Below, one piece after another: positions 4,181-63,735 of a stretch of DNA of 64,000 bases (positions are counted from its first letter, which is position 1; the number at the start of each line of letters is the position of its first letter). This stretch comes from Prorocentrum cordatum. Lineage: Eukaryota > Sar > Dinophyceae > Prorocentrales > Prorocentraceae. Under the pieces are notes generated by a model, which did no database searches, was not told where the DNA came from, and saw nothing but the letters and a program-made list of their open reading frames with translations. The translations under genes were made by a program, and so were the position numbers. The stretch is from assembly GCA_963575745.1 (NCBI GenBank), contig CAUYUJ010020549.1, positions 662,501 to 726,500 on the forward strand, written 5' to 3'.

Positions 4181-4806
4181 CATGTTAGCACAGCATCCAA
4201 TCACATGGTATTATGTAACATTCCCAACGCGACGCGCGCACCGTTGGGAACAACCTCCGAGGACTTCTGTGGGGATCGCTCGAAGCACAATAATGTCTGT
4301 TGTATCACACCTTGTGCTCGTGTTTGGCCCACAGACACGTGTATCTTGCATATCTGATTGTGTTTGAGTGCCGCTTCCGCCGCTTCCGCCTCCATTTTTA
4401 TCTTTGTCCAGTTCCGACTCCCCTCGGAGCTGGGTTTCGTCGTCGCTGCCCCGCTTCGGGCCCCCAGGGCCTTGGCGGAACGATCCGGGTGGCGGAACGA
4501 TGATGCGAAACCGTGGGGTCGAGATACTTGGCTGTACTTGTTCACGACGTTGGATCTCAGGATTCGGTCGGTCTGCCTGTCAGCTTTTGTGTCGTGCTTC
4601 TTTACGCCGCGCATGCACTGCCCTCCCTCGTGCCCCCTTGTGCCCCCGCTCGTGTCCCCCTCCCCTCCATTTCATCCCGCCCCTCCACGTCACTGGCTGA
4701 GCCAACTTCTGCAGCGCGTGTGGCGACTGGCCAGCCGGAGGCCTCGGGTTCCCCTCGCGCTGCCCTCTCTCGAGGAAGAGAAGACGGCATAACCATACCT
4801 GTTCGA
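4181..4806 (-). other. Spacer with one unassigned minus-strand ORF (4201-4614)
   Basis: A 137-codon frame on the minus strand (4614 down to 4201) has a lysine/alanine-rich middle and is less GC-driven than neighbouring frames. No domain is recognised. The plus strand has competing frames. It may be a chance ORF. Confidence 0.2.
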
Positions 4807-11670: not shown

Positions 11671-11826
11671 AAAACACACAGACACAATTAATCGTCGATC
11701 CCCCAGAAAATATGGGAAAATATGGGAAGTGGTGGGGAAGACAAAAACCGAGAAAATATAGGAAAATATGGGGAACCTTTTTATTTGTGTGTATTTATTT
11801 GTATGTCCCAGGGCCCCTTCAACCAT
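11671..11826 (+). repeat. Dispersed repeat with (A)ATATGGGAAAATATGGGA, copy 1
   Basis: Begins AAAACACACAGACACAATTA, carries GGGAAAATATGGGAAG and TTTGTGTGTATTTATT, and ends GTCCCAGGGCCCCTTC. A colinear copy lies at 48045-48197. Here it abuts the end of composite element copy 2. Confidence 0.85.
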
Positions 11827-12552: not shown

Positions 12553-13341
12553 AACATGATGGACCCACGAACCCGGAAAGGGATATAGACATGTGGAGCA
12601 TGGACACGTTTTCATGATACCCAACTGGGCAACACCTCACGAAACATCCCACGAGACACCTCACGAAACAGCCCACGAGACACCTCACGAAACATTCCAC
12701 GAGACACCTCACGAAACATTTCACGAGACACCCCGCGAAACATTCCACGAGACACCCCACGAAACATTCCACGACGACAGGCAACCACTCAACCAAGGCG
12801 GTGTGGTCGTGCTGGGGAGTGGTCGTGCTGGGGTGTGGTCGTGCTGGGGGGTGGTCGTGCTGGGGGGTGGTCGTGCTGGGGGGGTGGTCGTGCTGGGGGG
12901 TGGTCGTGCTGGGGCGTGGTCGTGCTGGGGCGTGGTCGTGCTGGGGCGTGGTCGTGCTGGGGTGTGGTCGTGCTGTGGTGAGGTCGTGCTGGGGTGTGGT
13001 CGTGCTGGGGTGTGGTCGTGCTGGGGTAGGGTCGTGCTGGGGTCGGGTCGTGCTGGGGTGTGGTCGTGCTGGGGTATGGTCGTGCTGGGGTGGGGTCGTG
13101 CTGGGGTGGGGTCGTGCTGGTGTCTGGTCGTGCTGGGGTGTGGTCGTGCTGGGGTATGGTCGTGCTAGGGTGGGGTCGTTGCTGGGGGAGTGGGTTCTTG
13201 CTGGTGTGGGTCCGTGCTGGGNNNNNNNNNNNNNNNNNNNNNNNNNNNNNNNNNNNNNNNNNNNNNNNNNNNNNNNNNNNNNNNNNNNNNNNNNNNNNNN
13301 NNNNNNNNNNNNNNNNNNNNNCTGCCCTTTCCGGGGAAAAC
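12553..13341 (+). repeat. Composite minisatellite element, copy 3 (contains assembly gap)
   Basis: Head at 12553 and 24-bp array nearly identical to copy 2. The 16-bp array runs 12800-13221, where the sequence becomes degraded (GTTGCTGGGGGAGTGGG) and then enters a 100-base N run. On the far side only CTGCCCTTTCCGGGG of the tail is present. The gap therefore hides the rest of the array and tail. Confidence 0.9.
13222..13321. other. Assembly gap, 100 N
   Basis: Exactly 100 N, the usual placeholder for a gap of unknown size, inside the 16-bp array of composite copy 3. True length is unknown. Confidence 0.99.
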
Positions 13342-29639: not shown

Positions 29640-30112
29640 CACACGGCGCACAGGGCCCAGGGGCCCAGGGCCGGAACCTCGACCACAAATGTGGGGACCG
29701 GGGCCCCGGCCCGCCTGTGGGAGGCTTAAAGTCGCCCCAGCAGGGAGCCCTCAGACAGCAATCTCGGCGGCCCCAAACGGTTTCGAGACACGCCCAAGAC
29801 TCCGTCCAGGGGTCTTTGGCGACGCACGATGTGTTTCAAAGTGCCCCGGAGGTCCGGAGGCCCCCAAGACGCCCCGAGAGGACTTTAAGATGCCGCCCAA
29901 GAGCGCCCCGAGAGGACAAAGTCGTTGATTCTCATTTGTTTTGTTCGATGTTTTTTTGCATTCTCGCTGTTTCGTGTTTCCGGCGCTAAAGCACCGCCCA
30001 AGAGGCCCCCCAAACCGCTAACAGACGGCCCAAGAGGCCCCCAAGAGGGCCCCAAGACGGCCCAAGAGAGCTCCGAGAGGGCCCCAGAGCCGCCCAAGAC
30101 GGCGCAAGAGGG
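29640..30112 (+). repeat. GGCCCCAAGA family element, interrupted by the retrogene
   Basis: Starts GGCGCACAGGGCC with ACCTCGACCACAAATGTGGG, carries AGCGCCCCGAGAGGACAAAG, TCGTTGATTCTC, TTTGCATTCTCGCTG and TTTCCGGCGCTAAAGCACCG, and continues into CCCAAGAGGCCCC steps. About 400 bp is colinear with 33587-33990. At 30112 (CGGCGCAAGAGGG) it stops where the DinoSL relic starts, while related copies continue TCCCAAGAAGGCCCC. Confidence 0.88.
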
Positions 30113-30134
30113 TCCGTAGCCATCTTGGCTCAAG
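30113..30134 (+). other. Relic DinoSL spliced-leader sequence (21/22)
   Basis: The 22 bases TCCGTAGCC-A-TCTTGGCTCAAG match the dinoflagellate spliced leader (CCGTAGCCATTTTGGCTC plus AAG, with D at the first position) with one difference, C for T in the middle T-run. In dinoflagellates this leader is added to mRNAs in trans, so a genomic copy joined to a gene indicates that an mRNA was reverse-transcribed and reinserted. The CDS starts 87 bp downstream. Confidence 0.9.
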
Positions 30135-30220
30135 CCGCTTCGGCCCGGCAGCGACCCTCGGAGTCGCCAGCGTTCGAGAAGCTCGCCCAGAGGCAGCTTT
30201 GAAGTCTCCTCGCCGCCGCG
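30135..30220 (+). promoter_or_regulatory. 5' untranslated region of the retrogene (inferred)
   Basis: 86 bp between the leader relic and the first ATG of the 158-codon frame. GC-rich, no repeat detected. It presumably descends from the original transcript's 5' UTR. Confidence 0.6.
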
Positions 30221-30697
30221 ATGCACGGGGGCCGCGCCGCCGCCTGCCCCCTGCTGCTGCTGGCCACCGGGGCCGCCGGTGACGAGACGTGCGGCGCGGG
30301 CGAGTGTGGCGCCGACGAGGCCGCCTCCTTGGCGCGCAAGGCGGACGTCCACAAGCACGGACAGGGCGCAAACGCAACGGGCACGATATGCGACGCCATC
30401 GACGTGCCAGGCCCGATGGCAAAAGGGTGCAGCTGGATGAAGACTCCTCCCGGCGACGACTGCGCACAAGCCACCGAGGGGGCGTGCATGTGCCGGGACT
30501 ACAACCTGTACAGGAACGGCTGCCCGATTTGTGAACCGAACCCGTGCACCAAGCGCTATTGCTTCGACATCGTTGACTTGCCGGGCAACAACTGCCAGTG
30601 GATGTGCAACAGCGGGGGCGATTGCCAGCAGCAGACGCCCAGCGCTATCGACTGCCGCAATACTAACCAAGCAAATTGCCCGCACCCCTGCCGCTAG
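30221..30697 (+). CDS. Secreted cysteine-rich protein (intronless, retroposed), 158 aa
   Basis: Complete frame from ATG to TAG. N-terminus MHGGRAAACPLLLLATGAAG fits a signal peptide, with likely cleavage before DETC. The mature part has 17 cysteines in about 138 residues. Two similar modules are visible: CDAIDVPGPMAKGCSWM...DDC at residues 57-80 and CFDIVDLPGNNCQWM...GDC at about 113-135, sharing (I)VD(V/L)PG-x(2-4)-C-x-WM-x(4-7)-DC. An N-A-T glycosylation sequon precedes the first. Such spacing suggests a disulfide-stabilised extracellular or lumenal protein; no named family is recognised and no function is assigned. The start is chosen because it gives the signal peptide and lies just after the DinoSL relic. 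No intron interrupts it. Whether it is transcribed at this site is unknown. Confidence 0.85.
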   Translation: MHGGRAAACPLLLLATGAAGDETCGAGECGADEAASLARKADVHKHGQGANATGTICDAIDVPGPMAKGCSWMKTPPGDDCAQATEGACMCRDYNLYRNGCPICEPNPCTKRYCFDIVDLPGNNCQWMCNSGGDCQQQTPSAIDCRNTNQANCPHPCR

Positions 30698-31098
30698 GGC
30701 CGTCTTCTGTGAGGCGTTGGCCACCGATCCGATGATCTGCGTGCATGTAGGTTTGAAGAGCCGCTCCTTTGCTCTGGGTGACCCCCCTATTGCAGAGGCT
30801 TCTGTCGAGACCCTCGACCGCGGCGCAGCGTTCTTAGTTCGTTCCCTACGTGGCAAAGCGGTGCCGCGCGCGACGCGGTTTCGACAGCGTGGCTCGAGGT
30901 GCTGACCGTCGGTTGCGAAGTCGACTCATCATCGAGTGAAGCGCTCGTGCGATTTATATGCGCACGTGGAGCTGCCTACCAGTGAGCGCCAGCCATCCAT
31001 TTGTAGGCAGGTCCTCTTTTGAGACGCGAGAAAGACAGCACTCAGGCGGGGGGGCCCCGCATCGCCGCATCGTTGCCTCCGCGCTCCATCGCGGGGAA
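30698..31098. other. 3' flank of the retrogene, no gene recognised
   Basis: Unique sequence. No poly-A tract and no return to the GGCCCCAAGA family sequence is seen, so the 3' end of the retroposed cDNA is not located. Confidence 0.4.
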
Positions 31099-32204
31099 AA
31101 CATGATGGACCCACGAACCCGGAAAGGGATATAGACATGTGCAGCATGGTCACGTTTTCACGATATCCAACTGGGCGACACCTCACGAAACATCCCACGA
31201 GACACCCCGCGAAACATCCTAGGAGACACCTCACGAAACAACCCACGAGACACCTCACGAAACATTCCACGAGACACCCCGTGAAACATTCCACGAGACA
31301 CCCCACGAACAGGCAACCACTCAACCAGACACCCCACGAAACATTCCACGGGGGTGCGACTGGGTGTGGTCGTGCTGGGGCGTGGTCGTGCTGGAGTATG
31401 GTCGTGTTGGGGTGTGGTCGTGCTGGGGTGTGGTCGTGCTGGGGTGTGGTCTTGCTGGGGTGGGGTCGTGCTGGGGTGGGGTCCGGCTGGGGTGTGGTCG
31501 TGCTGGGGTGTGGTCGTGCTGGGGTGTGGTCGTGCTGGGGTGGGGTCGTGCTTGGGTGGGGTCGGGCTGGGGTGTGGTCGTTCTGGGGTGTGGTCGTGCT
31601 GGGGTGTGGTCGTGCTGGGGTGGGGTCGTGCTGGGTCGGGGTCGTGCTGGAGTGTGGTCGTGCTGGGGTGTGGTCGTGTTGGGGTGTGGTCGTGCTGGGG
31701 CGTGGTCGTGCTGGGGTGGGGTCGTGCTGGAGTGGGGTCGTGCTGGGGTGTGGTCGTGCTGGGGTGGTCCGAACCCTGTGACTTATCGATCGGGTCGTGC
31801 TGGGGTGTGGTCGTGCTGGTGCTGGGGTGTGGTCGTGCTGGGGTGTGGTCGTGCTGGGGTCCTGCTGGGGTGTGGTCGTGCTGGGGTGTCGTGCTAGGGG
31901 GTAGAAAAAACAAATTCTGAAAAACAAGCGTTTCGCTCGAGACATCCTCGACAAATTCTGAAAAACAAGCGTTTCGCTCGAGACATCCTCAAATTTTAAT
32001 TCGCGGGCGCTCAAAAACAAGCGTTTCGCTCGAGACATCCTCAAATTTTAATTCGCGGGCTCGTTATTTATCAGGGAAAAATTCGCCGGCCTCCTTCGAC
32101 CTCGTTATTTATCAGGGAAAAAATTCGCCGGCCTCCTTCAAGCAGGCACCGGGGGACAGGTTTACCTACTAAAAGAGAACCCTGGGCTTAAGCCCTTTCC
32201 GGGA
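31099..32204 (+). repeat. Composite minisatellite element, copy 8
   Basis: Head at 31099 (CAGCATGGTCACG subtype), 24-bp array about 31175-31350 ending with the AACAGGCAACCACTCAACCA variant shared with copy 1, 16-bp array about 31365-31890 with a tail fragment at 31769-31797, tail with three CGCTCGAGACATCCTC segments, ending CCCTTTCCGGGAAA at about 32204. Confidence 0.92.
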
Positions 32205-33586
32205 AAAAGGGACAGCGCAAGAGGGCCCCAAGAGGGGCCCAAGAGAGGGAACGCGATCTGACAAATCAAGCTCACCGCCCCACGACGCCCCCGAGAGGCC
32301 TCGAGAGGTCCCCGGGAAGCCCCAAGAGCCCCCCAAGAGGCCCCCAGGAAGCCCCGAAGAGGCCCCACGAGATCTTTAAGAGGCCGCACGCTGCGTTTTA
32401 AATTGCCCCGGAGGCCCCCGAGATGCCCCAAGAGGCCTTTAGGATGCCGCCCAAGAGCGCCCCGAGAGGGCAAAATCGTTGATTATCATTGGTTTTTTCC
32501 ATTTGTTTATTGCATTTCTTTTTTTCCTTTCTGCATTTTTTACATTTTTTGCATTATCGCTGTTTCGCGCTTCCGCGCTAAAGCACCGCCCAAGAGGCCC
32601 CCGAGAGGGCCCCGAGACGGCCCAAGAGAGCCCCGAGACGGCCCCGGAGCCGCCGAAGACGGCGCAAGAGGGCCCCAAGAAGGCCCCGTAAGGGGCTCAA
32701 GAGAGGGAGCGCGATATGAAAAATCAAGCTGTCCGCCCCACGGTGCCCCCAAGAGGCCCCAAGAGGCCCCCAGGAAGCCCCGAAGAGGCCCCAAGAGGCC
32801 CCCACGAGGCCGCGCGATGCGGTTTGAATTGCCCCGGAGGCCCCCAAGACGCCCCAAGCCTGCAAGATGCCGCCCAAGAGCGCCCCGAGAGGGCAAAATC
32901 GTTGATTATAACGTTTTTGTTGTATTCTCGCTGTTTCGTGTTTCCGGCGCTGAGGCACCGCCCAAGAGGCTCCCCAAACCGTTAACAGGCGGCCCAAGAG
33001 GGCCCCAAGACGGCCCAAGAGAGCCCCGAGACGGCCCCAGAGCCGCTCAAGACGGCGCAAGAGAGTCCCAAAGAGGCCCCGAGAGGGGCACAAGAGAGGG
33101 AACGCGATCTGAAAAATCAAGCTCTCCGCCCCGCGATGCCCCCAAGAGGCCTCAAGAGGTCCCTGGGGAGCCCCAAGAGCCCCCCAAGAGGCCCCGAGAG
33201 GCCCCCAAGAAGCCCAATAGAGGCCCCAAGAGGCCCCAAGACGGCACCCAAAAGGCTTCAAACCTTTTTCTAAGAGGCACCCGAAGACATGCCAAGAAAA
33301 TCCCATGGCGACTTCAAGAAGCAGTCCTGGATGCTCCGAGGAAGCCCCAAGAGGTTCCCAAGAGAGCCCAAGAGGCCCCCAACAGGCCCCCAAGCTGACT
33401 CAAGCAGCATCCAGGAGGCCGGAAAGAGGTTCCCAAGAGCCCAGCGGTCCAGGCGGGGGCCGAACTAACATTTCTAGCCCTGGGCTCCCGGAAGCCCAGC
33501 AGGAAGCCCTAAGAGTTCGACCGTCTAGCCTAGCTAGAACTTGAGCGCGCGCGCGATGGTTTTATTTTTATACATATAACGGCGCA
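32205..33586 (+). repeat. GGCCCCAAGA family, long degenerate block
   Basis: CCAAGAGGCCCC-type steps with two embedded GCCCAAGAGCGCCCCGAGAG / CAAAATCGTTGATTAT blocks (about 32447-32590 and 32873-32975) each followed by a T-rich segment and TTTCGxGCTTCCGGCGCT. It ends GCTAGAACTTGAGCGCGCGC near 33535. Frames up to 331 codons (32403-33398) rich in R, P and K are repeat artefacts. Confidence 0.88.
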
Positions 33587-34350
33587 CCTGGCTCGGGGGC
33601 CGAGGGCCAGAACCTCGACCACAAATGTGAGGACCGGGCCCCGGGCCCGCCTCTGGGAGGCCTGAAATCGCCCCGGGGAGCCTTCAGACAGCAATCCCAG
33701 CGGCCTCAGGCGGTCTCGAGACACCCCCACGACGCCGCCCAGGGGTCTCCGGCGACGCACGACGCGTTTTAAACTGCCCCGGATGCCCCCAAGACGCCCC
33801 AAAATGCCTTTATTTAAGATGCCGCCCAAGAGCGCCCCGAGAGGGCAAAATCGTTGATTTCCCTGTTTTGTTTTAACAGTTTTTTTTTGCATTCTCGTTG
33901 TTTCGTGTTTCCGGCGCTAAGGCACCGCCCAAGAGGCCCCCACAACCGCTCGAGCCCCGAGACGGCTCCAGAGCCGCCCAAGACGGCGCAAGAGGGTCCC
34001 AAGAAGGCCCCAAGAGGGGCACGAGAGAGGGAACGCGAACTGAAAAATCAAGCTCTCCGCCCCAAGACGCCCCCCTAGAGGCCCCCAAGAGGCCCCAAGA
34101 TGCCCCCAGGAAACCCCCAAGAGGCCCCAAGAGGCTCCCAAGAGGCCCCAAGAGGCCCCCAAGAAGCCCAAAAGAGGCTCCAAGAGGCGCCAAGACAGCA
34201 CCCAACAGGCTTCAAATCTCTTTCTAAGAGGCCTCCGAAGACATGCCAAGAAGGTCCCATGACGACTTCAAGAAGCAAACCAGGATTCTCCGAGGAGGCC
34301 CCAAGAAGCTAGCTAGAATTTGAGCGCGCGCGAAGCGCGCGCGATGGTTC
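33587..34350 (+). repeat. GGCCCCAAGA family, second colinear copy
   Basis: Same order of blocks as 29640-30112 (GGCGCACCTGG, AACCTCGACCACAAATGTGA, TCTCCGGCGACGCACGAC, AAAATCGTTGATTTCC) followed by the CCAAGAGGCCCC steps that are missing there. It ends TAGCTAGAATTTGAGCGCGC, then the hairpin GCGCGCGCGAAGCGCGCGCG at about 34326. Confidence 0.88.
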
Positions 34351-55082: not shown

Positions 55083-55104
55083 TCCGTAGTCGTTTTTGTT
55101 CAAG
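55083..55104 (+). other. Relic DinoSL spliced-leader sequence (18/22)
   Basis: TCCGTAGTCGTTTTTGTTCA plus AG aligns without gaps to the dinoflagellate spliced leader with four differences (positions 8 C to T, 10 A to G, 15 G to T and 17 C to T, counting the first D as position 1). It stands 37 bp upstream of the ATG of the 303-codon intronless frame, the position expected for a reinserted trans-spliced mRNA. The lower identity suggests an older insertion than the one at 30113. Confidence 0.7.
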
Positions 55105-59252: not shown

Positions 59253-59468
59253 CGCTGCCAGTGTATGGGGATGGAACAGTCGATTTGCTCGTTTCGCGGT
59301 TGAGGCTCCTCTGCTTTCAGAGTTCCGTATCATTTTTGGCTCGAACGCTTCTGGCTCAGACGGTGTTCGCCTGCGTTTGCGACATCATATATTTCAGAAC
59401 GGCACGCTGTTGCTGCGGGCTTTCATTGGCTTCAGTCCTCTCGTTCAGTTCGAGGGATCTCAGCCCTC

Positions 59469-63500: not shown

Positions 63501-63735
63501 CGAATGAAGAGGAAACGTAAGGGTAGCACTCTATACCACACACTGGTGAATCCATAAGGGTCGGCCAACGATCTGCAGTGCGAGCCCACCTCCCTCACAC
63601 CCCTGGGTTCCGACTCCATCTCGTCCTCCATTCGTCATCGTGTTTGTTTGCGTCCATTTCAGTACCCTTCCTACCGTTCCATTGCCGTTTTGGGTCCAGT
63701 GCAGATAACTGTCCGAATAATGTAGCTCGTTTCGG

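Follow-up and report, generated by a model that had tools for sequence, protein, structure and literature searches.

Evidence for a spliced-leader-tagged retrocopy, probably inserted together with a non-coding repeat, in the genome of the dinoflagellate Prorocentrum cordatum

Dinoflagellates are said to recycle cDNA into their genomes, the resulting spliced-leader (SL)-tagged retrogenes having reportedly been described by Slamovits and Keeling in 2008 and by Song et al. in 2017. Mammalian processed pseudogenes are full-length cDNA copies that carry a 3' stretch of As and are bracketed by a target-site duplication. Relics of the dinoflagellate leader are established as retrogene tags (PMC6050394, PMC12014239, PMC7245778). 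A survey published in 2025 reports 477 retrogenes in transcripts of Prorocentrum minimum, the former name of P. cordatum (Haro et al. 2025; PMC12014239); in two Symbiodinium genomes 22-23% of genes are said to bear an SL relic (PMC6050394), and one relic is reported in only 0.7-2.3% of full-length transcripts in Polarella (PMC7245778). As to the machinery, a 2018 review considers the retroelement or reverse transcriptase that makes retrogenes to be unknown and more likely of the LTR type (PMC6050394). LINE-mediated retroposition has been proposed for the dinoRNAV endogenous viral elements of Symbiodiniaceae, which are associated with DinoSL relics, six of 26 RdRp ORFs having a DinoSL within 500 bp (PMC10235124). 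Finally, LINE activity is described as giving rise, by template switching, to chimeric retrogenes, in mammals as well as in the WEIRD/Mg-SINE/MGL fusions of Magnaporthe, where parts of several transcripts are joined (PMC2104539).

The locus described here lies in a 64,000-nucleotide stretch of P. cordatum DNA (the window), whose GC content of 52-66% in 2-kb steps agrees with the 59.7% reported for the species (PMC10666404). Positions 30113-32208 form an inserted unit of 2096 bp, made of a leader, a 5' untranslated region (5'UTR), an open reading frame, a further 399 bp and a non-coding repeat of about 1.1 kb, designated repeat B. We infer that this segment almost certainly holds the retrocopy of a trans-spliced mRNA. 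The best explanation of the whole, in which we have reasonable confidence, is that an SL-tagged mRNA retrocopy ending in B was inserted into a tandem repeat, repeat A. As in other dinoflagellate SL-tagged retrogenes, a DinoSL relic stands 5' of the coding unit at the distance of a normal 5'UTR. Unlike those treated in PMC6050394 and PMC12014239, which are recognised there by the SL tag, the present case resolves both junctions, unbroken copies of the target and a co-inserted non-coding repeat. The dinoRNAV elements likewise show an SL relic near an inserted RNA copy and have LINEs as their proposed machinery; that proposal rests on nearby LINE genes (PMC10235124), whereas ours relies on the ends of the insertion itself, and the cargo is a host gene. 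The fusion of two parts recalls the LINE chimeras, except that no LINE was identified here, the non-coding B forms the 3' partner and a trans-spliced leader heads the 5' one. In contrast to mammalian processed pseudogenes, the insertion ends in just five As, has an ambiguous duplication and bears a trans-spliced 5' tag. SL-tagged retrogenes are thus well known in dinoflagellates, and the mapped insertion with its fused repeat is the new part: among the matches listed in the open-licence literature, there was no dinoflagellate SL retrogene with a mapped target-site duplication or a co-inserted repeat. The term "target site duplication" occurs zero times in the available text of PMC6050394 and PMC12014239, and its single use in that of PMC7789003 concerns DNA transposons and MITEs.

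The 22 bases TCCGTAGCCATCTTGGCTCAAG at 30113-30134 (+ strand) match the dinoflagellate SL at 21 positions, as the original prediction had it, the sole mismatch being a T-to-C change. When a 21-base SL pattern was run along both strands of the 64 kb, 30113 was the only site with three mismatches or fewer. No such site arose in any of 100 dinucleotide shuffles of the window or of 200 first-order Markov simulations, and chance is therefore rejected as the source of the match. The terminal CTCAAG runs into CCGC and not into a GT donor, so the site is not an SL RNA gene. A DinoSL relic directly upstream of coding sequence in genomic DNA, and the absence of a GT after CTCAAG (contrast the CTCAAG|GTACG of contig L003, below), are two of the marks of a DinoSL-tagged retrogene, and both are seen here; others would be a parental copy that lacks the relic and usually has introns, and transcripts with a new SL joined within the relic. 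The relic is followed by an 86-bp 5' untranslated leader (30135-30220), free of ATG up to the start codon at 30221, and by a complete 158-codon frame (30221-30697, + strand) closed by TAG; the same leader and frame had been predicted, and the description of the gene as intronless holds for this frame. A further claim, that the copy is fairly recent, has weak support at best. With one mismatch in 22, the divergence has a 95% interval of 0.1-23%, so the age of the retrocopy is unreadable from the relic, and one difference in 15 between the flanking repeats and drift in the protein also speak against the claim.

The bounds of the insertion are set by repeat A, a GC-rich tandem repeat with a degenerate 11-bp unit (CCCAAGAGGGC). 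The left part of a broken A monomer occupies 29643-30112. In BLASTN comparisons this left flank matches 33579-34018 at 80.6%, only up to 30081; its matches to the A copies at 32834-33068 (82%) and 32385-32675 (75%) both stop at 30115, three bases inside the SL, where TCC is common to leader and repeat. The leader thus begins where repeat A is broken. On the other side A resumes near 32211, not after the gene but only past repeat B, and extends over 32226-34306. Three A monomers (site motif at 32656, 33049 and 33980) continue unbroken through the insertion point, the uninterrupted sequence lying around 32656-32675, 33049-33068 and 33980-33999, and the joined flanks of the insertion align across the site to all three. 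Because A breaks at the SL, resumes after B and reads through in these monomers, the inserted unit is delimited as 30113-32208; a recognisable empty site of this kind is one of the features of LINE-type insertions. The proposal of a reinserted mRNA is thereby strengthened by the abruptness of the 5' boundary at the SL, by three unbroken copies of the target and by the missing GT donor, and gains further from a likely target-site duplication. The window itself contradicts the concern that the 22 bases might belong to a longer conserved promoter: what lies directly upstream is a tandem repeat with other copies here devoid of SL. What had not been foreseen is that the insertion reaches to about 32208, with both junctions recognisable and repeat B included. 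Between the frame and B lies a 399-bp stretch (30698-31096), presumably the 3' untranslated region of the mRNA, which has no second match in the window at E 1e-5.

The encoded protein, P0001, is of a secreted, cysteine-rich type. It has a putative signal peptide, judged by eye, and 18 cysteines, 17 of them past the hydrophobic N-terminus, in line with the predicted count for the mature protein. Four matches came from a search of 5.8 billion proteins. With its paralogue P0002, a 159-residue protein of P. cordatum, P0001 aligns end to end at 91% identity, which indicates that the frame is real coding sequence; further relatives in this search were 64% and 52% identical. A profile search found at least 12 relatives among the 7989 best-sharing candidates scored. 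Pfam searches at E up to 10 for P0001 and up to 0.1 for P0002 yielded no family, so that the UniRef name of the latter, ShKT domain protein, is not matched by a Pfam assignment. The AlphaFold model of P0001 had a mean pLDDT of 42.5 and was not used. Of the 153 window ORFs of at least 150 residues, five long ones (starts 50500, 61281, 58245, 49081 and 47460) were searched in Pfam and gave no family. BLASTN of the window against itself revealed no second copy of the gene, and local duplication is rejected on this ground. A peptide-pattern search for P0001 relatives in viral contigs gave 24 hits, none of them confirmed. We also noted that P0004, an 86-residue EukProt entry under Pyramimonas sp., looks identical by eye to the C-terminal part of P0002; it likely reflects cross-contamination of the transcriptome.

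Comparison with relatives suggests that the copy is, rather likely, now under relaxed constraint. With P0003 and P0005 as outgroups, eight changes between P0001 and P0002 fall on P0001, one on P0002 and five are unassigned (p=0.04); when both outgroups are required to agree, the figures are four against one (p=0.375). In a wider alignment of P0002 and 10 further relatives, several of them near-duplicates of one another, P0001 stands by itself at positions 129, 133 and 155, where P0002 and nine or 10 of the 10 others have retained the same residue. Position 129 is the odd seventeenth mature cysteine, a Tyr in P0002 and nine of the 10 relatives and a Phe in the tenth. These lone departures at conserved positions, the cysteine included, point to relaxation. 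Position 124, one of the eight changes, carries the majority residue of the wider family and is not countable as decay. Alternatively, the copy could be a functional retrogene shaped by adaptive divergence, the gain of a cysteine being one example. This is possible, if on the unlikely side: the frame is intact, its only indel relative to P0002 being one whole codon; the P0001 residues at 140 and 152 recur in two of nine and two of 10 other relatives, the P0002 residues in none; and survival is said to be common among dinoflagellate retrocopies (PMC6050394, PMC12014239). The excess of changes on P0001 (with p rising from 0.04 to 0.375 under the stricter count), the three lone departures and a mature cysteine count turned odd argue the other way.

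Just outside the insertion stand two copies of a direct repeat, GACGGCGCAAGAGGG at 30098-30112 and GACAGCGCAAGAGGG at 32211-32225 (both + strand), which agree at 14 of 15 positions, or at 16 of 18 when three more bases are included. LINE-type target-site duplications measure about 7-20 bp. A duplication of about 15 bp flanking the insert is likely rather than demonstrated. In its favour, a 14/15 match is rare within the repeat A background (0.4-0.7%): random pairs do as well in 0.4% of cases, and 16 of 2461 local positions also reach it. Yet the 11-bp period of repeat A makes any direct repeat ambiguous. Joins without a duplication, in which the 8-9 bases are treated as filler or kept, outscore the duplication joins against all three target copies (268-278 v 261-265, 310-319 v 302 and 232-242 v 213), because the duplication reading requires the loss of one 11-bp unit. 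As A copies often differ in length, we keep the duplication as likely. In an upstream-partner test the insert's own partner scored 13, and three of 40 random controls scored higher (17, 18.5 and 21).

Repeat B (31097-32208, + strand) starts with (A)nCATGATGGACCC and ends with CCGGGAAAAA, its 3' end being that of the insertion. Inside it are a 24-bp array, 52-bp and 42-bp units and a 16-bp array whose length varies. Eight B 5' ends occur in the window (529, 10103, 12552, 13358, 14342, 25120, 27197 and 31097), along with seven 3' ends. The 5' ends open with two to eight As and CATGATGGACCC, and are preceded by differing sequence; two of them come after B-like sequence, so some copies are in tandem. 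The 3' ends close with CCGGG(G) and two to five As. The AAAAA that terminates the insert is also found at the B ends at 11674 and 15922, and the insert lacks a long poly(A). Of the other B copies, five with both ends were tested, and none is bracketed by a convincing duplication. Two were marginal with 20-base flanks, a fraction of 0.04 of 300 random pairs being as good, and the same two gave 0.22 and 0.12 with 45-base flanks. In these five copies B, despite its recognisable ends, does not convincingly show the flanking duplications that characterise the dispersed copies of SINE-like retroposons. A conserved 3' hairpin that might serve as a recognition site for reverse transcriptase was not supported in the five copies folded (z from -1.85 to +0.59). 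The idea that each B terminates a larger duplicated unit on its 3' side is rejected, three of the six B 3' ends examined having no upstream partner; two had partners of 8 and 9 bases. A run of exactly 100 N right after a B array, at 13222-13321, marks a scaffold gap, and nearby B copies may consequently be incomplete.

The following scenario probably accounts for these features. The trans-spliced mRNA of a secreted cysteine-rich protein would have been reverse transcribed and put into a copy of repeat A, leaving the SL at the 5' end of the inserted copy. Since a complete B closes the inserted unit with its own 3' end, a B RNA or a transcript ending in B most likely supplied the 3' end where reverse transcription began; the enzyme would then have continued, by reading or by jumping, along the mRNA as far as its first nucleotide. 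The duplication of about 15 bp, if real, would fit priming at a nicked target by a LINE-type enzyme. An element-defined 3' end, together with this duplication if real, points to a LINE-type mechanism, to which we give an even chance. Should the copy be transcribed, a new leader would be joined at CCGTAG|CC within the relic, giving SL-CCATCTTGGCTCAAG tandem leaders.

A single event that included B is probable. It is the simplest account because the 3' end of B coincides with that of the insert: either the mRNA itself ended in B, or an enzyme working on B RNA switched to the mRNA. The second form, a jump of the reverse transcriptase from the 5' end of B RNA to the 3' end of the SL mRNA, is conceivable, though we would not bet on it. 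B does reach its usual 5' end here and the host mRNA is complete to its own, and chimeras of fused transcripts have been described in Magnaporthe, one of them flanked by 14-bp direct repeats (PMC2104539). Against this, a jump onto a poly(A) tail should leave more than the four As found at the junction; as B 5' ends in the window carry two to eight As, the junction is uninformative. The main rival to a single event is a succession of two, in which an SL retrocopy with its own poly(A) end came first and B landed later at its 3' tail. We consider this unlikely. The four As at 31097-31100 might be a poly(A) remnant, and other B copies in the window have no SL gene upstream, showing that B can be acquired without a gene. 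However, B would have had to land right at the retrocopy's outer edge, its end separated from resumed A by no more than about nine bases, and 31097-32208 has no duplication of its own. Returning to one insertion that included B, it is tempting to ask whether B is a hitch-hiking handle for gene retroposition, transcripts ending in B, or reverse transcriptases starting on B RNA, giving rise to a class of dinoflagellate retrogenes that extend from an SL to a B 3' end. This is doubtful; if true, the machinery of cDNA recycling would thereby be named. With its two junctions, unbroken target copies, a possible duplication of about 15 bp and B at its 3' end, the insertion makes the retrogene machinery testable, and raises the question of whether other relic-tagged genes end in B, and with what duplication length.

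A promoter element, or a portion of an SL RNA gene, is a highly improbable alternative to a relic for the 22-mer at 30113. The 2018 review does propose that the SL's TTT(G) motif acts as a promoter in retrogenes (PMC6050394), but the lone mismatch turns TTTG into CTTG, the adjoining upstream sequence is repeat A, found elsewhere in the window without SL, and CCGC stands where a GT donor would be expected.

Three more SL-like sites occur in the window, all on the + strand, at 55083-55104, 59324-59345 and 63678-63699, with four, five and five mismatches. Counting 30113, four sites with up to five mismatches were observed against 0.135 expected, the maximum in 200 simulations being two. The three may be older relics. 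An ATG 37 bp past the last of them opens an 88-codon frame that reaches the end of the window.

SL sequences also turned up on contigs filed under other organisms. Two are filed as Dehalococcoidia MAGs. In L003 the leader (4334-4354, - strand) is followed by a GT donor (CTCAAG|GTACG), and looks like a contaminating SL RNA gene. In L002 an exact SL at 31-52 comes right after a (TCA)n repeat, probably marking a dinoflagellate retrocopy present as a contaminant. When L002 and L003 were compared with each other and with the window, the comparison produced, among the matches listed, only the (TCA)n repeat of L002. A scan of IMG/VR viral contigs for the SL yielded one contig, L001 (IMGVR_UViG_3300045993_001077), with two exact copies. 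From the SL at 2767 to about 1783 extends a stretch of about 985 bp with 49% GC, which terminates in GGGAAAAAA (A6); the remainder of the contig averages 17.7% GC, except for a GC-rich patch at about 2880-2970 that contains the second SL (2893-2913). The stretch carries a 254-residue frame whose only relative is itself, and the frames scanned in L001 yielded no viral hallmark gene. It looks like a full-length host cDNA, from leader to poly(A), in a contig filed as viral, and probably reflects either the capture of host cDNA by a dinoflagellate virus or a chimeric assembly. L001 and L002 share the 5' signature of the relic in the window.
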